Shown here piece after piece: positions 4,404 to 13,961 of a stretch of DNA of 21,344 nt. The notes under the pieces are model-generated. The model was not told the origin of the DNA and ran no database searches. It was given only the letters and a program-made list of their open reading frames with translations. The stretch covers positions 1-21,344 of the IMG/VR virus record IMGVR_UViG_3300043595_000035; one strand, 5' to 3'. Source of the DNA: a virus. The position numbers and the translations under genes were made by a program. Numbering within the stretch: the first letter of the stretch is position 1; each line of letters starts with the position of its first letter.

Positions 4404-4980
4404 CCTGCCTCCACACGCGCCCGGAGCAGCCTCGGCAAGATCGGCGATGCCTCGGCGTTCAGATCCTGCCTCCACACGCGCCCGGAGCAGCCGCGGGGTC
4501 GTAGAATGTATCGGGCTCGATATACCCTGCCTCCACACGCGCCCGGAGCAGCCGTTCAATATGCGGGGCATCGTCCGGATAGATGGCCTGCCTCCACACG
4601 CGCCCGGAGCAGCCCCTGGCGGCGCCTACAACACGGAGCCTGGGCAACCTGCCTCCACACGCGCCCGGAGCAGCCCTCGAACGCCTCGATCAGGCGCTTG
4701 CGGCCTTCCCTGCCTCCACACGCGCCCGGAGCAGCCGATGCAGCGGATGGACGGGCATTCGGGAAGGATCCTGCCTCCACACGCGCCCGGAGCAGCCAAC
4801 ACGAGAGCGAGTATCACTATCTTTTTAGCGCCTGCCTCCACACGCGCCCGGAGCAGCCGGATTCTATAATTTACGGCAGCCGGAATTACTACCTGCCTCC
4901 ACACGCGCCCGGAGCAGCCGAAGCATGGCTGATCGCGCATCCGCAGGCGAAGCCTGCCTCCACACGCGCCCGGAGCAGCC
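4404..4980. CRISPR. CRISPR array, 10 repeats and 9 spacers
   Basis: Ten identical 28-bp repeats start at 4404, 4465, 4526, 4587, 4648, 4709, 4770, 4831, 4892 and 4953, each 61 bp apart, leaving nine unique 33-bp spacers. The repeat begins CCTGCCTCC and ends GGAGCAGCC on the + strand. It can fold as a 7-bp stem (CTGCTCC with GGA-G-GCAG, one bulged G, 10-nt loop on the minus strand). Repeat and spacer lengths match type I-E arrays. No repeat is degenerate, so polarity is not shown directly. The 301-bp gap on the cas side and only 32 bp on the other suggest a leader on the right and leftward transcription, co-directional with cas. The minus-strand repeat start, GGCTGCTCC, also resembles I-E repeats. 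Confidence 0.98.
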
Positions 4981-5281
4981 TCTAGCTGCCAAGCTGCTGG
5001 TGTTGCTCCACCTTTTCAAAGAACAACCCATCCGGTTAGATGGATGGCTGGTCGGGACGCGTATGGGTGCCCCCTTCAAAGCCCGCCGCCCGTGGTTTGA
5101 CCGAAGCCAGACCATCTGGAGGCAAAGCTCCGATGCCGCTACCCCTCTAATCGCAATTGAGAGGAATTACAGGCCGGCAGCCACGTCACCTCCGTAGAGG
5201 TGACGTGGCGGGCTTTAACCACGACTTTTCGCCTTGCGGCAGCAGTAGCCGGGACCGCCTTCGCGGTGAACGAAACATCTT
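4981..5281. promoter_or_regulatory. Probable CRISPR leader and cas2-array intergenic region
   Basis: A 301-bp stretch without a convincing gene lies between the last repeat and the cas2 stop. It is the only space adjoining the array large enough for a leader with promoter and integration signals. It holds a 13-bp perfect hairpin (5180-5209) and an 8-nt match to the complement of the repeat (TGGAGGCA, 5117-5124). A GGAG...CTCC mini-hairpin surrounds that match. I could not pick out a clear promoter or IHF site. Confidence 0.5.
5180..5209. other. Perfect 13-bp hairpin downstream of cas2
   Basis: GCCACGTCACCTC (5180-5192), loop CGTA, GAGGTGACGTGGC (5197-5209). No T-run follows on either strand (GGGCTTTAAC on +, TGCCGGCC on -), so it is not a canonical terminator. 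It could be a Rho-assisted or bidirectional 3' end for the cas transcript, a small structured RNA, or a protein-binding palindrome in the leader. Confidence 0.7.
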
Positions 5282-5584
5282 CTATTTCTTCAGTCGTGTC
5301 AATAGTATTCCGTCAGCTTCTATTAAATCGCGCGTCGTTTCACCGAGTATCCGAACGCCAACGTCTCCGAATGACTTTGCGTCGCGCCAGATCATAACAA
5401 TCGAGCCACGCATCAAGGCTTGATGCCATTTTTCCAGTACAGCCCAGAGCTGGTCCCGCGCATCGCGATTGAGCTGGGGGCTGACATAGATCCCTGCCGC
5501 GACCTCCAGCATCGTGGAGCGCAGCAACCCGCGATAGCGATGCTCGACATCGCGGGTGATCACCAGTGTCAGGGCGTGGCTCAT
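5282..5584 (-). CDS. cas2: CRISPR adaptation protein Cas2, type I-E family
   Basis: A 100-residue Cas2 of the CT1978/I-E kind. Residues 4-12 are the first beta strand (ALTLVITRD), 25-34 read MLEVAAGIYV (E. coli Cas2 has LLEVRAGVYVG at the same place), and 61-66 SIVMIW is the core strand. The C-terminus carries the extra strand region (DGILLTRLKK). Cas2 dimerises and bridges two Cas1 dimers to form the integrase that inserts new spacers. Its ATG overlaps the cas1 stop by ATGA. It is the last gene of the eight-gene operon and faces the array. The I-E type is unexpected beside a Cas12-like effector. Confidence 0.92.
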   Translation of the reverse strand: MSHALTLVITRDVEHRYRGLLRSTMLEVAAGIYVSPQLNRDARDQLWAVLEKWHQALMRGSIVMIWRDAKSFGDVGVRILGETTRDLIEADGILLTRLKK

Positions 5585-6441
5585 GGCGGTGTCAGCAGTT
5601 GTTTGATACGCTCGATCATCGACGGGATCACATCGTCATCAGCGAAGATTACGTTGGCGCGCCGGCGCACCAGGCGCTCCAATGTGAGATCCTGAGCCTG
5701 CGCATCGCGAACGGCGCCAAACGCGATGCGCAGCGTCGTCGTGTCCCGGTAGAGGTCGGCGATGTCCAGGATCAGCGCTTGCGAGGAATCCTCATGGACG
5801 AATCCGAGCTGGGGAATTGCTGCCGTCGCCATGACGGCGATCGCCGCGGCGGCGCGGACCGCACTGGAGACATGGTTGATCGCCTGGTTGGCGCTATCCG
5901 CCGCGGCCGGGTTGGCGCGATCATAATGCCGGCCCTTCCATTCGATGCCGAACTCCTCGGCGATACGCGCATAAGCCGCTTTGACGCGCGCGCCTTCCAT
6001 GCCGCGCAGCACCTCGATGTCTCGGTGCGGCAGCACCTCGCCGAAGCGCATCGCATACATCTGCCGGGCGACATACATCCGGGAATTGCGGTCCGCCCAT
6101 AATTCGGCTTGGCGACGGGCAAGCGCCGAGGATCCGGCCATCAGCGGCGGCGCGGTATAGAGCTTGACCCCGCCCTCGCCGATAGCGGCAAGCGCCGCGC
6201 CATGGCTGGCCAGCAGCCGCAGCGCATCATGGGTGACGCTCGATCCTGGCCCGAGCAGCACCATGGAGATGGCCTGATGGGGGATTTCGTATTCGCCCGC
6301 CTCTAGGACGCCGCCAGCCGTAACGAACCGGAGGCAGCCATCCTTGACATCCAGCTTGCCGCGATCCAGCCAGACCAGGCCGTGACGGGCATTGTAGGGG
6401 ATGCGAACCCGTTCGAGACCAAGGCGACCGCGCAGCATCAT
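5581..6441 (-). CDS. cas1: CRISPR integrase Cas1, type I-E family
   Basis: A 286-residue Cas1 that aligns by eye along its length with E. coli (I-E) Cas1. Shared blocks are LLGPGSSVTHDALRLLASHGA, the ARQMYAMRFGE region, LRGMEGARVKAAYA, GIEWKGRHYD and LGFVHEDSS...DIADLYR. The metal-binding residues are present as Glu149, His216 and Asp229 (with Asp226), at a constant +8 offset from E. coli E141/H208/D221, so it should be an active spacer integrase. The start is the first ATG of ATGATG at 6441, overlapping the effector stop and preceded by AGAGGG. A longer in-frame start (6624) lies inside the effector gene and lacks such support. No Cas4 or IHF gene is nearby. Confidence 0.95.
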   Translation of the reverse strand: MMLRGRLGLERVRIPYNARHGLVWLDRGKLDVKDGCLRFVTAGGVLEAGEYEIPHQAISMVLLGPGSSVTHDALRLLASHGAALAAIGEGGVKLYTAPPLMAGSSALARRQAELWADRNSRMYVARQMYAMRFGEVLPHRDIEVLRGMEGARVKAAYARIAEEFGIEWKGRHYDRANPAAADSANQAINHVSSAVRAAAAIAVMATAAIPQLGFVHEDSSQALILDIADLYRDTTTLRIAFGAVRDAQAQDLTLERLVRRRANVIFADDDVIPSMIERIKQLLTPP

Positions 6442-8156
6442 CCGGCCCTCTGCACAAGCCGCACGGCCAGTTCCTTGTGGATCACCCGCGCAGAATTGCG
6501 CGTATAGGTCAGCACCGTGCCGCAGGTCTTGCCATCGAGCAGCGACTCCTGGCAGCGCATGATCTCGCGGCCCTTGGCCCGCGCCATCTTCCATTCCGGC
6601 TTCAGCACGCCGCAGCCCGAGCAAGCCTGCGCGGTGACATCGAGCGGCGAGATTTCCTCGTAGGCGTGCTTGCCACGCATATCGGTGGCCTTGTATTTCA
6701 GCGTAGTTTGAATGCGCGCCAGCGCGGCGCGGCGCATCATGACGCGAGCCGCCTTCAGCGAGCGGCGCTTGCCTTGCCAGGGGGCCTTGACCTGGTCTTC
6801 CTTGTCCTCGGGCGGGACCGGTTTTTTCATCAGCTTCGCCACTTCCATGCGCTGCACGGCGATGACGTCGAAATCCCTCACAATCTGTGTGGTGATCTCA
6901 TGCAGCCAAGCGTCACGCGCATTGGCGTCGGTCGCCTCCAGCTTGGCCAATTTTGCCGCGGCGGCATAAAAGCCTGGCGACAGCGGGATGCGGGCGCGGC
7001 GAAGCGGCTTGACGGCAAGACCGCGCTCCAGCTTTTGGGCAAGGCGCTTCTTGGCGTAGGCTTCGCGCTTTTTTGCTTTCATCTTCCGGGCTTCCATCGC
7101 GCGCGATTGCGCCCGGCCGGCAGCGGCATGTTCGGCGAGCAGCGCCTTGTCGATCGGCGGCATTTGCAATTCGCGGGTCTGGCCGCGATTATCGACGATG
7201 GTGATGGGGATCGCTGCGGCGATTTTCACGGCGGCCGTCCGTCCCGTCCGTGGCAATGCCGTGAGTCTGGGCACCTTCCACTGGCAGGACAAAAACCAAT
7301 CCTCGCCCTGCCGCCAGATGCGTCCGCCCATCAGGGTCGCTTCGCGATATGAATGCGCGGCATTGAGATGGCGGGGCATGCGGCATTCCATCCAGCCGAC
7401 GCCGTTGGGCAGCTTCACCCGGGCGAATTCTCCGCGGATCGCATCGGGATCGCCGGCTTTGCGCTTTGCCTCGAATTTGAGCTGGGTGTTGGCGAAATAG
7501 ACGCTGCCCGAGGCATAGCGGTTTTTCTTGAACTTCGGAAAGCCGGTGTCGCGGCCGCCTGATCCAGCGATGCGCTTTTTCCGCTCCCGCAGCATGGCCT
7601 GCAGCGCCTTGATCAGATCCTTGACCACGGATTGTGAGGCGTGGCTGGGCAGATCCGCGATCCATTCGGTCTGTGGCACCATCTTCAGCCGCGCCATGAT
7701 TTTTTGCAGCTCGTGCTCCCACATGAACAGGCGCGGCTGTGCCGGGGTGACATCTCCGGTTTCGGGGTGGACATCGACGGCGCCATTCATCCGGACGCGA
7801 ATTTTGTCGATGACGGCGCCATCCAGCGGCGGCGGTTCCTTCTTCTCGCCGGGCGCTTTGATCACGCTGCCGTCCTTGCGCTTCTTGCCCTCGCGCGCAA
7901 CACGGATCGCCTCGGCGTGGCTTTCCGTCACCACTGTTGCCCAGATCGATCTCCAGCCCAAATGGACCTTGCTTGCCTCGCCGGAATAGGCGGCTTGCTC
8001 CAGGTCGAGCAGCAGGTTCCAGAGCTGGCGGCACCGATGGCGCCACAAATCCATGGTCTTGGCCTGGGTGGCGCTTGGATAGATGCGGATCTTGGATCCG
8101 CGCATCATCTGGTCCGGCTCTTCGCCGACGGCGGGAATGGGCAAAAGTTCGTTCAT
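6438..8156 (-). CDS. TnpB/Cas12-like effector, predicted nuclease-dead
   Basis: A 572-residue protein. Residues 22-51 (KIRIYPSATQAK...RCRQLWNLLLD) match the N-terminal OrfB/TnpB segment, and 205-222 (GFPKFKKNRYASGSVYF) the TnpB-like WED region. The C-terminal third is RuvC plus zinc ribbon: RuvC-I 308-325 (AAVKIAAAIPITIVDNRG), RuvC-II 428-444 (DFDVIAVQRMEVAKLMK), YKA-type segment 487-490, TAQACSGCG 508-516, RuvC-III 545-559. The expected catalytic acids align with Ala313, Gln435 and Thr552. The Cys4 ribbon is complete (C512, C515, C535, C545). A basic helical stretch spans 350-392. Start 8156 overlaps the upstream stop by ATGA and has GAGAGGAG upstream. Size resembles Cas12m (type V-M), which binds DNA without cutting. 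Predicted role: crRNA-guided DNA binding and transcriptional block. Subtype unresolved. A TldR-like repressor is the main alternative, but cas1, cas2 and an array argue for CRISPR. Confidence 0.85.
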   Translation of the reverse strand: MNELLPIPAVGEEPDQMMRGSKIRIYPSATQAKTMDLWRHRCRQLWNLLLDLEQAAYSGEASKVHLGWRSIWATVVTESHAEAIRVAREGKKRKDGSVIKAPGEKKEPPPLDGAVIDKIRVRMNGAVDVHPETGDVTPAQPRLFMWEHELQKIMARLKMVPQTEWIADLPSHASQSVVKDLIKALQAMLRERKKRIAGSGGRDTGFPKFKKNRYASGSVYFANTQLKFEAKRKAGDPDAIRGEFARVKLPNGVGWMECRMPRHLNAAHSYREATLMGGRIWRQGEDWFLSCQWKVPRLTALPRTGRTAAVKIAAAIPITIVDNRGQTRELQMPPIDKALLAEHAAAGRAQSRAMEARKMKAKKREAYAKKRLAQKLERGLAVKPLRRARIPLSPGFYAAAAKLAKLEATDANARDAWLHEITTQIVRDFDVIAVQRMEVAKLMKKPVPPEDKEDQVKAPWQGKRRSLKAARVMMRRAALARIQTTLKYKATDMRGKHAYEEISPLDVTAQACSGCGVLKPEWKMARAKGREIMRCQESLLDGKTCGTVLTYTRNSARVIHKELAVRLVQRAG

Positions 8157-8425
8157 GTCGCGCGCTCCTCTCTGAAAATCCGGTCCGCGGCGATGATGAT
8201 CTGGGCGATCGACTTCAGCCCGGTGCGCCACTTGATATTGGACCTGTGAATTTCGATGGTGCGGCTGGACAGGCGGAGTTCGCGGCCGCTCTGCTTGTTG
8301 GTCATTCCCTTTGCCATGCATTGCACGACCTGCAGCTCGCGGTCGGTGACGTTGAACATCGCGCGCCGCGTTGCCGGGATCACCTTCGGCAGGTCAGCGG
8401 CGGGGATTTCCAGCCAGTCGGTCAT
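8153..8425 (-). CDS. LuxR/GerE-type HTH protein without receiver domain
   Basis: A 90-residue protein. Residues 25-80 (NVTDRELQVVQCMAKGMTNKQSGRELRLSSRTIEIHRSNIKWRTG) are a LuxR-type DNA-binding domain: 'LTxREreVl...G.sNKeIa..L.iS.rTVe.HrsnI..K' with the recognition helix near SSRTIEIHRS. There is no receiver or ligand-binding domain, so it is a stand-alone DNA binder. ATGA overlaps join it to both the upstream gene and the cas12-like gene, so it is made in step with the effector and may regulate the CRISPR operon. The longer 123-codon frame reads through the upstream gene and is rejected. Confidence 0.8.
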   Translation of the reverse strand: MTDWLEIPAADLPKVIPATRRAMFNVTDRELQVVQCMAKGMTNKQSGRELRLSSRTIEIHRSNIKWRTGLKSIAQIIIAADRIFREERAT

Positions 8426-8676: not shown

Positions 8677-9041
8677 TGCTCCGCCTCCACGCTTTCCGCC
8701 GCCACCTTCCCGCCCAGAGCTGCGCGGATGTCCTCCGCCAGCTTCGCGCCCTCAGGCGTCAGCGCCAGCGTCAGGAATTTGCGCGACAGGTTGTTGCCGC
8801 CGCAGCGGATGAACCCGGCCTTGTGTAATTTGCCCACGATCGAATAGGGGGCGCTGCCGGGGATGTGGCCCAGGCGGATCGCCTCGCGGACCAGCATTTC
8901 GCGGTCACCGATGAGCGCCAGCGCCAGGGCCGACAGCGGCGGCAGATCGATGCGCTGTTGCGCCAGCAGCACCTGCACTGTGCCGACGATCTTGCGATAG
9001 GCGGTGAGTGTGCGGGGGATTTCGGGGGACATCGGGGTCAC
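8673..9041 (-). CDS. Winged-helix (MarR-like) DNA-binding protein
   Basis: A 122-residue protein. An N-terminal helix (ALTAYRKIVGTVQVLLAQQ-like) precedes residues about 34-100, which read as a MarR-like winged helix: LSALALALIGDREMLVREAIRLGHIPGSAPYSIVGKLHKAGFIRC, then NNLSRKFLTLALTPEGAKLAEDI as wing and last helix. The 'L.kaGfI.r..........LTpeGa.la' pattern is typical. The start is taken at 9041, where ATGA overlaps the XRE gene stop. MSPEIP at 9032 is an alternative. It is the second of three DNA-binding proteins in the operon. Confidence 0.7.
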   Translation of the reverse strand: MTPMSPEIPRTLTAYRKIVGTVQVLLAQQRIDLPPLSALALALIGDREMLVREAIRLGHIPGSAPYSIVGKLHKAGFIRCGGNNLSRKFLTLALTPEGAKLAEDIRAALGGKVAAESVEAEQ

Positions 9042-9514
9042 GCTGCGTCCTCCACCAGCTTGGGCCGCTTGCTGTCCCCATCGACACCGATCCGCATGGC
9101 GCAGGCCGCAACGGCGAGCGCTTGCGCGTAAGCGTCATCCCACGGACGCAGCCCCTTTTTGCATTCCAACATCAGGCCGGACAGCTTCCCCACCGCTTCC
9201 ATCAGCACGAGAGGCACGTCATCGAGCGCAGGCACACTCCGCCGGTAGTAGATGACGGCATCGCTCAGGCGCTTGACGAACAGCCGCTCCGGCGTTGCGT
9301 CCGCTTCCGGGTGCGGCAGCAGCTCATAGGGATCAACCCCCATCGCCTGAGCGATCAGATACAGCCATTCCATCGACACCGTCATACCGCCGGTTTCCAT
9401 CCGCTGGATGGATTGCGGCGTGGTGTTTATGGCAAGTGCGACGTCTTTGAGGGTGAAGCCGCGCGCCTTGCGCACCTCACGGATGAGCGTCTTGGCGTCG
9501 ATGTGTTTCCTCAT
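9038..9514 (-). CDS. XRE-family transcriptional regulator
   Basis: A 158-residue protein. Residues 8-63 form a Cro/C1-type helix-turn-helix: LIREVRKARGFTLKDVALAINTTPQSIQRMETGGMTVSMEWLYLIAQAMGVDPYEL, with the recognition helix at TTPQSIQRMETG. The C-terminal domain (about 75-158) is helical and contains the segment KLSGLMLECKKGLRPWDDAYAQALAVA, similar to the C-terminal extension of many phage XRE proteins. It could be a repressor of this operon or a phage-state regulator. The start at 9514 overlaps the glycosyltransferase stop (ATGA). The longer 206-codon frame is read through that gene. Confidence 0.85.
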   Translation of the reverse strand: MRKHIDAKTLIREVRKARGFTLKDVALAINTTPQSIQRMETGGMTVSMEWLYLIAQAMGVDPYELLPHPEADATPERLFVKRLSDAVIYYRRSVPALDDVPLVLMEAVGKLSGLMLECKKGLRPWDDAYAQALAVAACAMRIGVDGDSKRPKLVEDAA

Positions 9515-10461
9515 TGCTGTGCCCCTGTCAGCTTGCGCCAGCGCTTCGCGATCGAGCGCGTCAGCCGCTGGCGCAGATTGCGCTTGCCCTGCTTGGCCCT
9601 GGCCAGATCGGCTTCGTAGCCATTGGCGATGATCGCCTCGATGACATCGGCGCGGCATTGCTGCCCCATCAGCGGCCCCTTGGGGCGCTGCCGATGCCCG
9701 AAGACATCCCCGCGCTGCCAGCTATTGTCTTCATGAACGCCGCGATAGATCAGCGGCTTGGTGAAGAACATCGAGCCGCCCAGCATATGCGCGCCGGGGG
9801 CGATATAGGCGTCGATCTGGCGCTTGTAGCCCAGCGTCTTGTTGGGCTGCATGGCCTCAAGCACCGGGCGGCGGAACATCATCGATGAGGTGGTGGACCA
9901 ATGCCAGCCGGGCGTGGCGGCCGGGAAGAAACGCAGCGTCGGCGCGATCTCCGCCGGCATGAGGCCGTCATCGGAAAGCGTCTTGGCGATGTGCCCGGTC
10001 TGCACGCCGGTGATCACCTGGTCGTTGCGCAGCAGCATCTGCTCGCAGCACACCAGCGCGCAGATCAGCGCCGGGTTGAGATGCGCCGTCAGCATCTCCT
10101 CCAGGAAGGTCGGCGCGTACCGATCATCGGGGTCGAGCGGGCAGACGAACTCGCCCTTGGTCGCGGCCAGCCCGGCGAAGAACGCCGGTATCTGCCCGAC
10201 ATTGTCATCCAGCGCCAGGAAGCGGATGCGCGGCTCGTGCAGTGTCTCCACCAACAGATCGGCAATCGCCCGGTGCGTGTCGTCGGAGCCGTCATCGACC
10301 ACCACGCATTCCCAATTGCCGTGGGTCTGGTCCAGCAGCGACAGCAGCGCGTCTTCGAGATGGGCGCTGTAATTGTGGTGGGTGACGATGATGGAGACGA
10401 GCGGCTTGTGCCACTTCGCGCGGTCGAGCGTTTTTGGCATCTTGGGAACGACTTTCAGCAT
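9511..10461 (-). CDS. Family 2 glycosyltransferase
   Basis: A 316-residue GT-A type glycosyltransferase. Residues 21-30 are the first strand (LVSIIVTHHN), 50-59 contain NWECVVVDDGS for nucleotide binding, and 106-113 read FVCPLDPDD, holding the DxD metal motif. HEDNSWQRGD near the C-terminal third carries likely acceptor-site acids. It has no membrane segment and a basic C-terminus (RLTRSIAKRWRKL). It is the first gene of the operon that ends with cas2. The start at 10461 has GAGGG eight bases upstream. In temperate phages such enzymes often modify host surface glycans to exclude other phages. The substrate cannot be told here. Confidence 0.85.
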   Translation of the reverse strand: MLKVVPKMPKTLDRAKWHKPLVSIIVTHHNYSAHLEDALLSLLDQTHGNWECVVVDDGSDDTHRAIADLLVETLHEPRIRFLALDDNVGQIPAFFAGLAATKGEFVCPLDPDDRYAPTFLEEMLTAHLNPALICALVCCEQMLLRNDQVITGVQTGHIAKTLSDDGLMPAEIAPTLRFFPAATPGWHWSTTSSMMFRRPVLEAMQPNKTLGYKRQIDAYIAPGAHMLGGSMFFTKPLIYRGVHEDNSWQRGDVFGHRQRPKGPLMGQQCRADVIEAIIANGYEADLARAKQGKRNLRQRLTRSIAKRWRKLTGAQQ

Positions 10462-10489
10462 GGCGGTGTCCCTCGGGTGAAGCTGCTGG

Positions 10490-10702
10490 GAATGGCCGGA
10501 TTTCGCGGTTGAGTAGGGATATCGCCGACCCCGCATCCGGTCTTTCGTCGGTGGGACATCCCAGCGTGCCCCTTCGCATGTGGCCGGCGAATTCTGGCTG
10601 GAGACGACCGGATTTCGCGGTGTACGACCGACCCCGCCAGGGCCGCATCCGGTCTTTCTTCCGTGGGACGCTCCAGGTCGCCCCCTTCCATGTCCCTGGC
10701 GG
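10490..10702. repeat. Two-copy 112-bp structured tandem repeat
   Basis: Two imperfect direct repeats are offset by exactly 112 bp: CCGGATTTCGCGGT at 10496 and 10608, GCATCCGGTCTTTC at 10533 and 10645, GTGGGAC at 10551 and 10663. Each copy contains an inverted repeat: GACCGGAT (10606-10613) with ATCCGGTC (10647-10654), extended by GCGG/CCGC. In the left copy GGCCGGAT (10494-10501) pairs with ATCCGGTC (10535-10542) through one wobble. It fills the space upstream of the glycosyltransferase start and may be the leader RNA, promoter or operator of the CRISPR-containing operon. Reading frames across it look like chance. Confidence 0.75.
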
Positions 10703-10922: not shown

Positions 10923-11189
10923 CTATCGCGCGCCGGGTGCGGGAGATTTGCGGCCCGGCGCGCCAGACGGGCTGGCGGTTGCCTCGCACACAAGCGGGCG
11001 CGTGGCCTCGGCTTGCGTGCATCTGGCGCGCCGCCATGCCAGCCTTGCGGCCTCATGGCGGAAGGTGTCGCGGATGGAAACCGGCGTGTCCTTGAAGCTC
11101 AGGCCGTTGCCGTCGCCGGCAAGCGCGAGCGCGAGCGGGGGGACGTTGACCGTGCCCAGGATGATGGCGAATGCTGTGGTCATGCGCAT
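10923..11189 (-). CDS. Possible small exported protein
   Basis: An 88-residue frame (MRMTTAFAIILGTVNVPPLALALAGDGNG...) with a hydrophobic N-terminus that could be a signal peptide cleaved after ALA, followed by a polar region (DTPVSIRDTFRHEAARLAWRRARCTQAEATRPLVCEA) with two cysteines. No strong ribosome binding site is visible. ATG at 11189 or 11183 are equally possible. It sits between two other small reverse-strand genes with export or membrane signals, which favours it being real. Confidence 0.45.
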   Translation of the reverse strand: MRMTTAFAIILGTVNVPPLALALAGDGNGLSFKDTPVSIRDTFRHEAARLAWRRARCTQAEATRPLVCEATASPSGAPGRKSPAPGAR

Positions 11190-11270
11190 GAGTGTGCCCG
11201 GTGTCGGTTGTTGCTGATCCGGGCGGCGACAGCCCATCGCCGCCGCCCGCTCCCTCTCACGACGCGCGAA

Positions 11271-11582
11271 TTACTTCGCGTCGGAGCCGGATTCTCCGCC
11301 TTCGGAACCTTCTCCGCCTTCGGAGCCGCTGGAGCTGTCGGCGCTGTCCGCGCCATCGGCCTGCGGGCCATCGGCTGCCCACACGCTGTTGTCGATCCCG
11401 CCATCGGCGTGATTGCACCAGCCGCGATCGCCGCGAACGCGGTTGATCTCATAGCCGCCGGTCTGGGCGTTCAGAACCTTGAACGGGCGGGTCAGTTCGC
11501 AGGCGTCGCCATCGGCGACCTCCCCCATGGCCGGAATTGACAGGGACGCAAGCACGGAAAACAGCAGGAAGCTTTTTTTCAT
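11271..11582 (-). CDS. Secreted small protein with acidic Ser/Gly-rich tail
   Basis: A 103-residue protein starting MKKSFLLFSVLASLSIPAMGE, a clear Sec signal peptide with probable cleavage after AMG. The mature domain (ACELTRPFKVLNAQTGGYEINRVRGDRGWCNHAD) has two cysteines that could pair. The last 35 residues are low-complexity Asp/Ser/Gly/Glu (AADGPQADGADSADSSSGSEGGEGSEGGES). GAGGG precedes the ATG by about eight bases. No family is recognised. It is a plausible lysogenic-conversion (moron) product acting in the periplasm or outside. Confidence 0.7.
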   Translation of the reverse strand: MKKSFLLFSVLASLSIPAMGEVADGDACELTRPFKVLNAQTGGYEINRVRGDRGWCNHADGGIDNSVWAADGPQADGADSADSSSGSEGGEGSEGGESGSDAK

Positions 11583-12065
11583 TGAAAATCCCTCGGGTTG
11601 AAAATTGCAGAGACGACGCGGGGTAGTTGCTTGCCGCGCCGTCTCCTTGCAGACCTGTCGATGATCGGATAAACGAGGTGCTGCAAACTGGCATGCACTG
11701 CGGTCTTGCGGCGGTGAGCAGGCCGGGATGGATAGTTGAGACAGACCCATCCCGACCGACCCCGCTTCTCATTGCCGCCCCGGTCTTCCCCGTCTGGTGG
11801 GTGAGAAGGGAGAAAGGCCACACGGGTTTGCCGGGGGCATTCCGACGCGGCCTTCATGGGGTCCGCTGCGGGAGAGGAAAGAAACACACCGCGTGTTTTC
11901 GTTCCCCCTGCCGTGTAGAATGCACACACGCAGTTGCGCCTGTACAGCGAAAAGTTTCGTCACTTTATGGAATAGGTGTTTCCACCTATCGAGACAGCAA
12001 CGGCCCGCCATGGCCATGTAGTTGCGCGCCTTGTTCGCGCTTCGTTCTTCTGGCATCATCGGTTG
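11583..12065. promoter_or_regulatory. 483-bp non-coding region with an operator-like dyad
   Basis: No convincing gene is seen in this stretch between a reverse-strand secreted protein and a forward-strand gene, so it must hold divergent promoters. The clearest element is ATAGGTG-N4-CACCTAT at 11972-11989, a perfect 7-bp dyad about 75 bp upstream of the 12066 gene and close to AT-rich sequence (CACTTTATGGAAT) that could serve as a -10 region. It could be a phage repressor operator. The rest is unremarkable. Confidence 0.4.
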
Positions 12066-12374
12066 ATGAACGAGACCGCCAAGACTGCCAAGACCGGCTA
12101 TTCCGGCTCCACCATCCTGATGACACGTGATGCCGAGCGCCTGGCGCTGTGGCGTGCCGCCGTGCTGGTCTATCGCCGGGCGCGGTCGGAGCGCGGCGAC
12201 AAGGAATGGCTATGCGCCGCCGCCAGCACTGGCGCGGTGATGCAGCTTGCGCCGCAGATGAGCTGGGATGAGGCGTCGCGGGTTGCTACCGAGGCGGTCG
12301 CGGCGGTGTCGGTGCGCTGGCCGGGGTGGATGTGGGAGGGTGAGGGCGAGGGGCCGGATTGGGGTGGGGATTAG
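12066..12374 (+). CDS. Hypothetical small protein next to attP
   Basis: A 102-residue protein starting MNETAKTAKTGYSG, largely helical (DAERLALWRAAVLVYRRARSERGD; WDEASRVATEAVAAVSVRWPGWMW) with an acidic, glycine-rich end (EGEGEGPDWGGD). No family is recognised. The start at 12066 was chosen over an upstream in-frame ATG because the latter lies in the promoter-like region. It is the last gene before the attachment site and points toward it. Confidence 0.55.
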   Translation: MNETAKTAKTGYSGSTILMTRDAERLALWRAAVLVYRRARSERGDKEWLCAAASTGAVMQLAPQMSWDEASRVATEAVAAVSVRWPGWMWEGEGEGPDWGGD

Positions 12375-12389
12375 CGGCCCCTGCGCTCC

Positions 12390-12670
12390 TGGGACCCCGT
12401 TGGGACCCCGTTTGGTTTCGCCGCCTACTGCTTCCCGCCTAAGTCGTTGATTTAATTGGTGAGCCCAGATGGATTCGAACCATCGACCTACTGATTAAAA
12501 GTCAGTTAAGAGTGAGAAAACTGCGAAACGACGCGAAATAGAAAATGCCATAAATCCGTTGAAATGCTAGCGCTTTGCGCGTATCAGCAGTTCCGCACAG
12601 TTACCATCAAGCCTCGTTTTCTTGGGACCCCAGTGGGACCCCAGCGTGGCTTCGGGGACCCGGGGTCCCA
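12390..12670. other. attP: Phage attachment site (attP) with arm-type repeats
   Basis: Five copies of TGGGACCCC surround a tRNA-derived core. Two lie to the left (12390-12398 and 12401-12409), two to the right (12623-12631 and 12634-12642), each pair spaced 11 bp, one helical turn. One inverted copy is at 12662-12670. Tyrosine integrases bind paired arm sites on both phage arms of attP, while attL and attR keep only one arm each. The integrase gene starts 29 bp after the last copy. This layout supports an unintegrated, circular or tandem phage genome. Confidence 0.7.
12457..12506 (-). other. tRNA-Lys(UUU) 3' fragment, attachment core
   Basis: Read on the minus strand this is the anticodon arm (ACTGA-CTTTTAA-TCAGT, anticodon UUU), variable loop, T arm (GATGG-TTCGAAT-CCATC), 3' acceptor strand (TGGGCTC), discriminator A and encoded CCA. 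No D arm or 5' acceptor strand lies on its 5' side, where the sequence is unrelated. It is therefore not a working tRNA but the identity block by which the integrase would recombine with a host tRNA-Lys gene and restore its 3' end. Confidence 0.85.
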
Positions 12671-12698
12671 CCCGGCGAGCGGAACACGGGGGCAAGCG

Positions 12699-13961
12699 AT
12701 GAATCTCACTGACAGGTTTGTGGCGGGGTGCCGCGCCATCGAAGGCCAGCGCACGGACTACCCGGACGATAAGGTTAAGGGACTCACCCTTCGCGTGACG
12801 CCCGCCGGATCGAAAAGCTGGAGCCTACGCTATCGCCGCCAGTCGGACGGCAAGCGCCAACGTCTCACAATCGGTGATTATCCGGCCTTCTCGCTCTATG
12901 AGGCGAGATCGGAGGCGCGCGCCATTCTCGGCGATGTCGCCAGGGGCGATGACCCGGCCAAGTTGAAGAAGCGGCCTGATGCTTCAAAACCCCGCACCTT
13001 CGGCGAGCTTGCGGCGCGTTACATCACCGGCCATGCCGCGCAGAAAAAGAGCGGCAAGGAAGATGAGCGCATCCTTGCCAAGGACGTGCTGCCGGCACTG
13101 GAAGGCGAACCCCTCGGCAGCATTGAGCGCGCCGACATTGCGGCGATCCTTGATACCATCATGGCGCGCGGCTCGCCGGTCGCGGCAAATCGCACCCTGT
13201 CGGCGGTGCGCAAGGTGTTCAACTGGGGCATGGAGAAGGGGCTGATCGCGGCAACGCCCTTGGTTCGCATGAAACCGGCGGCGAAGGAGGCGAGCCGCGA
13301 GCGGGTGCTGTCCGCCGACGAAATCGTCACGTTCTGGCGGCGGCTGGTGGCCAAGGCGCGGATGGATTGGGAGATGCGGCTGCTGCTGCGGCTGTGCCTC
13401 GTTACCGGCCAGCGCATTTCGGTGATCGCCGGCGCGTCGCGCGACGAGATGCATTTCGCCGACGCCGAATGGCACATCTCCGGCGCGCGGATGAAAAACG
13501 GCCTGCCCCATATCGCCCCGCTGTCGCCGCTGGCGTTGCGGCTGTTTGAGAAGGCCGCCACGCGGTCGCGGCATAAGCCGTTGTTACTGCCGAGCCGGTT
13601 GACAGGTCGCGCTTTCCTGAAAAGCGCGCCATCACAGGCGATGAGGCGGGAGTTGGCAAGGCTGGGACTGAAACAGGCGGCGACGCCGCATGATCTCCGC
13701 CGCACAGTGGGGACGGGGCTCGGGCGTCTGGGCTATTCCCGGCTCATCCAGGATAAGGTGCTCGCGCATGTGACCGGCGACCGAAGCGTCGCCGCGATCT
13801 ATGACCGCTACGAATATATCAAGGAGAAGCGCGAAGCCCTGGACGCATGGGCCGCACATCTGGAAAAGCTTCTGTTCGCGCCAAAGGCAGCGCCCGCTGT
13901 GGTCGTCAGCCGGACGCCGCCACGGCCTGCCGGAATGGCTTCGCCCTGGTCTCGCCCCTAG
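12699..13961 (+). CDS. int: Tyrosine site-specific recombinase (P4-type integrase)
   Basis: A 420-residue P4-family integrase. The N-terminal DUF4102-like arm-binding domain (residues 1-100) includes VKGLTLRVTPAGSKSWSLRYR and LTIGDYPAFSLYEARSEA. A SAM-like core-binding domain (about 100-200) follows, then the catalytic domain. Catalytic residues visible are Arg239 (LVTGQRIS), His331 and Arg334 (TPHDLRRT), His357 (LAHVTGD) and Tyr368 (AAIYDRYEY). The start at 12699 is preceded by GGGGG. The upstream in-frame extension from 12564 runs through the arm sites and is unlikely. Location beside the tRNA-derived core matches its role in integration. Confidence 0.93.
   Translation: MNLTDRFVAGCRAIEGQRTDYPDDKVKGLTLRVTPAGSKSWSLRYRRQSDGKRQRLTIGDYPAFSLYEARSEARAILGDVARGDDPAKLKKRPDASKPRTFGELAARYITGHAAQKKSGKEDERILAKDVLPALEGEPLGSIERADIAAILDTIMARGSPVAANRTLSAVRKVFNWGMEKGLIAATPLVRMKPAAKEASRERVLSADEIVTFWRRLVAKARMDWEMRLLLRLCLVTGQRISVIAGASRDEMHFADAEWHISGARMKNGLPHIAPLSPLALRLFEKAATRSRHKPLLLPSRLTGRAFLKSAPSQAMRRELARLGLKQAATPHDLRRTVGTGLGRLGYSRLIQDKVLAHVTGDRSVAAIYDRYEYIKEKREALDAWAAHLEKLLFAPKAAPAVVVSRTPPRPAGMASPWSRP

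Follow-up and report, generated by a model that had tools for sequence, protein, structure and literature searches.

The window, by which we mean the whole stretch of DNA analysed here, is an entire virus record of 21,344 bases. Comparison with related loci makes it very likely that positions 12390-12670 represent an intact attP site from the free form of a temperate phage, worked by the adjoining integrase (Table 1), and this bacterial virus probably uses the region as a docking site for insertion into a tRNA-Lys gene. An attP with arm sites, a tRNA-Lys core and an adjoining integrase had been proposed by an earlier sequence-only reading; this arrangement is supported structurally, most strongly by the layout found in relatives of the integrase. 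To the left of the site lie a tail-fibre-type match and a weak endolysin match, and to the right RuvC-like and RecT-like matches, so that both flanks look phage. No exact terminal repeat of 11-200 bases was detected in the 21,344-base record.

Table 1. Predicted components of the attachment region and the adjoining integrase gene (window coordinates)
Feature	Position	Strand	Basis
Predicted P-arm integrase site 1, TGGGACCCC	12390..12398	+	Exact match; relatives with pairs on both arms
Predicted P-arm integrase site 2, TGGGACCCC, 11 bp past site 1	12401..12409	+	Exact match
attP core: tRNA-Lys(UUU) 3' part with its CCA, 51 bp	12457..12507	-	98% identity to intact gene in genome G866
Proposed crossover: ACTGA - TTAAAAG - TCAGT	12490..12506		att duplications of L059 and L060 end after TTAAAAG
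Predicted P'-arm integrase site, TGGGACCCC	12623..12631	+	Exact match; relatives share pair position
Predicted P'-arm integrase site, TGGGACCCC, 11 bp further	12634..12642	+	Exact match
Candidate degenerate sixth site, GGGGACCCG, 7/9 match	12654..12662	+	By eye; overlaps inverted copy
Predicted fifth site, inverted TGGGACCCC, next to integrase start	12662..12670	-	Exact match
Tyrosine integrase, 420 aa: Arm-DNA-bind_3, Phage_int_M, Phage_integrase	12699..13961	+	Pfam

The attachment region and its integrase

The five copies of TGGGACCCC between 12390 and 12670 are the only exact ones in the window. They lie where the sequence-only reading had placed them, as two pairs, each with a start-to-start spacing of 11 bp, and a single inverted copy on the right; the starts of the two pairs are 233 bp apart. 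Helically spaced repeated sites thereby occupy both sides of the core, as in a heterobivalent attP. Among 20,000 first-order Markov copies of the region 12300-12760, a 9-mer reached five or more copies, counting both strands, in 20, and one pair of a 9-mer spaced by 11 bp arose in 45, but two such pairs of one 9-mer were never generated. When counted with one mismatch, the motif occurs six times in the window against a shuffle mean of 5.55, a number reached in 51 of 100 shuffles; hence it is the exactness, clustering and spacing of the copies that carry the case, not their bare count. Stretches of 461 bp containing a 9-mer in at least four copies are also found at 1-611, in a CRISPR array and at approximately 11101-11811, hence repeat density alone does not single out 12390-12670. 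In the first of these, which contains a tail-fibre-type gene and probably consists of coding repeats, a 9-mer is found six times within 461 bp; at 11101-11811, one is found four times within the same distance. A promoter scan found no site.

The left pair begins 67 bp ahead of the core, the CCA of which is at 12457-12459, with identity to tRNA-Lys(UUU) covering the anticodon arm and reaching approximately 12507. The identification of the core as the 3' part of this gene was borne out, its length being 51 bp as opposed to the 50 bp originally claimed. ARAGORN called no complete tRNA in the window, as expected for a core that is only part of a gene. The tRNA segment was matched in 94 of the 398 genomes of the sampled phylum (E value of 1e-8 or better), the closest match being 98% identical over 51 bp, and an intact tRNA-Lys(ttt) was called by ARAGORN in all 13 sequences submitted to it, which came from nine genomes and comprised eight of the 12 phylum-sample loci plus five longer regions. 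In the 385 genomes of the sampled class, neither the 49-bp tRNA segment at up to one mismatch nor the exact TGGGACCCC pair was present. The search for a host target suggested by the sequence-only reading thus yielded near-identical tRNA-Lys(UUU) genes in the sampled phylum, but neither the exact target nor an integrated copy was found.

At the N terminus of the integrase, residues 3-92 match Arm-DNA-bind_3 (DUF4102, PF13356; E value of 1.2e-20), and Pfam also detects, as domain-level matches, core-binding (Phage_int_M) and tyrosine recombinase catalytic (Phage_integrase) domains. The best PDB sequence match is the arm domain of a CP4-like integrase (3jtz). PDB entries 1z1g and 5j0n, which we take to be lambda Int, show no alignment before residue 131 or 132, and the arm of the window integrase matches PF13356 in place of a lambda-type N-terminal domain. 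Since it carries Arm-DNA-bind_3 (DUF4102), the protein, as judged from its domains, belongs in the P4/IntSXT branch and not with lambda Int. The earlier description of the system as 'lambda-like' therefore fits the expected mode of action but not the integrase family. As in the P4 cluster, the tRNA 3'-end core lies beside int.

No close relative of the integrase was found in searches of plasmids, phages, viral contigs and genomes. The best plasmid match has 38.6% identity, and the phage matches have at most 35% among the 25 of 317 matches listed. Viral contigs supplied one related integrase locus, at 27%, and genome contigs one relative at 34%, in a Rhodospirillaceae MAG, through a peptide-pattern scan that reaches close relatives only. 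The best relative, at 42% identity (39% by tblastn), came from 150 genomes of a single order, 68 of which have an integrase match with an E value of 1e-20 or better.

Repeat pairs in related loci, integrated elements and free phages

Paired repeats upstream of int recur in the loci of these divergent relatives. An exact 8-mer repeated at a lag of exactly 11 was present upstream of int in 23 of the 38 loci with enough upstream DNA, the window included, against a Markov mean of 0.24; the same type of repeat was found in 0/38 cases within int, 1/34 downstream of it and 0/33 far upstream. With the lag widened to 10-13 and the reach set at 140 bp from int, limits chosen after the lag-11 test and the free-phage results, a repeat pair of at least seven bases is found in 42 of 48 loci, compared with 2.2 in shuffles. 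The lag is 11 in 25 of these loci, 12 in ten, 10 in six and 13 in one. This larger set differs from the earlier one in omitting L008 and including ten phage records and L059; L008 had no pair in the earlier analyses, and counting it gives 42/49. The six loci without a pair by this rule are L009, L010, L018, L028, L033 and L088, L018 being the closest relative of the window. Pairs were picked mechanically, and the picks in L086 and L087 are probably not the arm motif. Loci L017 and L045, where the match begins late in int, and L006, with too little upstream DNA, were dropped. L019 and L020 are near-duplicates, both of which are counted in the two sets and the controls; L013 repeats L014 at greater length, and each of the pairs L025/L069, L031/L072, L035/L074, L036/L075 and L046/L080 stands for one element represented at two lengths.

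An inverted copy of the pair motif accompanies 11 of the 42 pairs, with 1.39 expected, and lies on the int side in five (L001, L021, L022, L043 and L093, the window among them) and on the core side in six; the inverted copies seen by eye in L014 and L059 are outside the 11. The motifs themselves are unalike, examples being TGTTACCCC, TAAGTCCCC, TGAAGCCCC, GTGCGTCCT, GTGGCTTCC and TGTATAAACA.

If the pairs are arm sites, an integrated element has to carry the same motif next to its second att copy as well. An integrase was present in 21 of 22 regions, and six of the 21 have an att duplication of at least 47 bases (82-100% identity), several of the remainder being cut by a contig end. In all six, as a raw count, a pair with the same motif is found beside the distal att copy, at a lag of 11 or 12, 18-101 bp before it and 5 to 13 kb from int, under a rule accepting runs of six or more bases within 200 bp (the run in L059 is only six bases). 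Amongst free phages, pairs with runs of at least seven bases are found on both arms in six of 12 records, with pair starts 208-234 bp apart; L087 has by eye a both-arm pair with a six-base run on the left, and five of the 12 lack a both-arm pair by the run-of-seven rule. L072, L074 and L080 have a common att repeat ending GGGAGGCTTCACGTCTRGGAG, which was not recognised as a tRNA.

The element in L059 (genome G253, of the same class as the Rhodospirillaceae MAG) sits in a tRNA-Lys(UUU) gene and encodes an integrase with 31% identity over its first 208 residues. A 48-bp partial copy of the tRNA, which stops after GATTAAAAG, is followed by the integrase, and about 8 kb further on is an intact tRNA-Lys(UUU) at 9396-9471. 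Ahead of int are the sites GCTTCCGTATAGCTTCCGG and, by eye, a 6-bp inverted CGGAAG; ahead of the intact tRNA are TACTTCCGTATTGCTTCCGG. This gives a plan of two sites, core, two sites and one inverted site, like that of the window, and the relative displays both the direct repeats and the restored tRNA-Lys gene. L060, in which no integrase match reached the threshold used, has a second tRNA-Lys duplication. As the att repeat of L059 ends at the anticodon loop and both duplications stop after GATTAAAAG, they suggest that crossover takes place within the 7-base loop, which in the window would correspond to the TTAAAAG overlap at 12495-12501. The anticodon stem, ACTGA / TCAGT, may serve as the inverted core-type sites.

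Across 40 integrases, from which near-duplicates had been removed, motif similarity correlates with similarity of the catalytic (r = 0.37), middle (r = 0.39) and arm (r = 0.20) domains. Once the catalytic part is controlled for, the arm domain contributes little (partial r = 0.08, p = 0.075), whereas the reverse partial correlation, that of the catalytic part with the arm domain held constant, is 0.32 (p = 0.0005). The idea that the motif can be predicted specifically from the arm domain was therefore rejected, co-variation with this domain in particular being unsupported. Use of the exact double TGGGACCCC motif as a signature likewise failed, with four viral contigs carrying it without a related integrase in the stretches searched and none of the 385 genomes containing it; hence the motif alone is not diagnostic. 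Of those contigs, L002 (216-235) and L003 (4944-4963) have tandem GTGGGACCCCTATGGGACCCCT sites, and the stretch searched contained no related integrase in either case; L004 and L005 resemble, by eye, other repeat-rich stretches. As a literature text term, TGGGACCCC occurs in 118 papers, and the titles of the 20 listed look unrelated.

Proposed mechanism and alternative explanations

Direct observations here are the anatomy of the sequence, the integrase family, and relatives that have a similar plan or are integrated at tRNA genes; integrase binding, the place of crossover for this phage, autoregulation and the host are inferred. The N-terminal arm domain of the integrase would bind the TGGGACCCC sites, which number two per side plus an inverted one close to the integrase start, with the central and catalytic domains binding the anticodon-stem core, such that a heterobivalent protein would bridge the two kinds of site. 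The phage would be inserted by strand exchange across the anticodon loop (7 bp) of a tRNA-Lys(UUU) gene in the host, and the tRNA gene would be restored in the process because attP brings the whole 3' end with its CCA. Through the sites located between the core and int, the integrase could furthermore repress int when attP is regenerated; autorepression of this kind is reported for IntS of ICEMlSymR7A.

Should the repeats instead be an operator for a regulator, either a repressor or an excisionase, that flanks the core only incidentally, the position of the right-hand sites directly upstream of int would be readily explained. The window also contains a repressor-type HTH gene, at 9041-9658, beside which a family 2 glycosyltransferase gene (9514-10536, minus strand), possibly cargo, is encoded. 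Furthermore, four other viral contigs have the exact pair, but tblastn detected no related integrase in the stretches searched, which for L002 alone amount to the whole contig. Against this, pairs of the same motif occupy both ends of all six integrated relatives in which an att duplication was found, the far one being kilobases from int, which makes an operator very improbable; motif similarity tracks integrase similarity, and the available text on ICEMlSymR7A identifies its motifs as arm-type sites of IntS on which integration depends. Dual use of the sites by the integrase itself is possible.

Integrated relatives with the same right half beside int raise the alternative that the structure is an attL, or a hybrid site, of an element that has already integrated. 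Yet the left pair is just upstream of the core, when in integrated relatives it is found at the element's distal end, the matches on both sides are of phage type, and the window contains no full tRNA. With both arms flanking the core and phage-type matches either side, we regard an integrated attL as less probable still than an operator, and retain the reading of an intact attP in a free phage.

Relation to known systems and wider significance

The window site is of a familiar type, and the useful addition is the layout common to many related integrases. Comparisons with published systems draw on the available portions of the papers cited. The closest characterised case is the attP of ICEMlSymR7A from Mesorhizobium, in which 283 bp contain five IntS arm-type motifs, all reported to be required for efficient integration (PMC11963761), and the IntS protein represses its own promoter (PMC11963761, PMC5882170). 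Compared by site number, attP length, core, int position and autorepression, the two are alike in having five motifs, within 281 bp in the window, a tRNA 3'-end core and an adjoining int; they differ in that the ICEMlSymR7A motif is TGKTGGTATC, the target is a phe-tRNA with 17 bp of identity, and the element is an ICE and not a phage. In the KplE1 prophage, arm sites overlap the int promoter and control it (PMC2951348). DUF4102 integrases constitute the IntSXT subgroup, and for its P4 cluster the insertion site lies downstream of tRNA genes (PMC8138268); the window integrase has the same arm-domain family, but is at most 42% identical to the relatives found and has its own motif.

Lambda attP, with the heterobivalent tyrosine recombinase Int, likewise distributes five arm-type sites over the two arms that flank the core (PMC4880445) and has the same bridging principle, whereas the arm domain of the window integrase is, by Pfam, of another family; this comparison covers the arm-type sites. 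In the attP of Bradyrhizobium phage BDU-MI-1 (L009), a AGGGTGCC pair at 11 bp is seen by eye to the left of a tRNA-like core, with further direct and inverted copies to the right, followed by int. It differs from the window in having inverted copies on both sides, no exact right pair, another tRNA and another motif.

The same phage carries a type V CRISPR-Cas locus at 4404-8321. It comprises a Cas12-like effector (6441-8321, minus strand; PADLOC Cas12_x2, E value of 1.5e-276), Cas1 (within 5584-6624, minus strand) and Cas2 (5287-5584, minus strand), the latter two both closest to type I-E models, and an array starting at 4404 that has 28-base repeats with a 61-bp period in at least nine repeat-spacer copies. 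This phage-borne combination of a Cas12 effector and I-E-like adaptation genes merits separate attention, and the present analysis fixes an attachment site, a likely crossover region and a tRNA target for the phage that carries it.

Among the open-access papers listed by our searches, we recognised none that states a family-wide rule for arm sites. On balance, we favour the view that DUF4102 integrases share an attP grammar, in which pairs of the same motif flank the core on both sides, the motif being private to each system and drifting with the integrase. On the int side, sites of about 8-10 bp would be spaced by 10-13 bp, and lie some 25-80 bp before int in most cases; the pair starts would be about 208-234 bp apart, as measured in free phages, with an inverted copy in some. 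Such a common layout could help to delimit islands and prophages that lack annotation, and could serve the study of how arm-site specificity evolves. If the grammar is true, attP sites, element ends and arm specificity would become readable from sequence across proteobacterial phages and islands.
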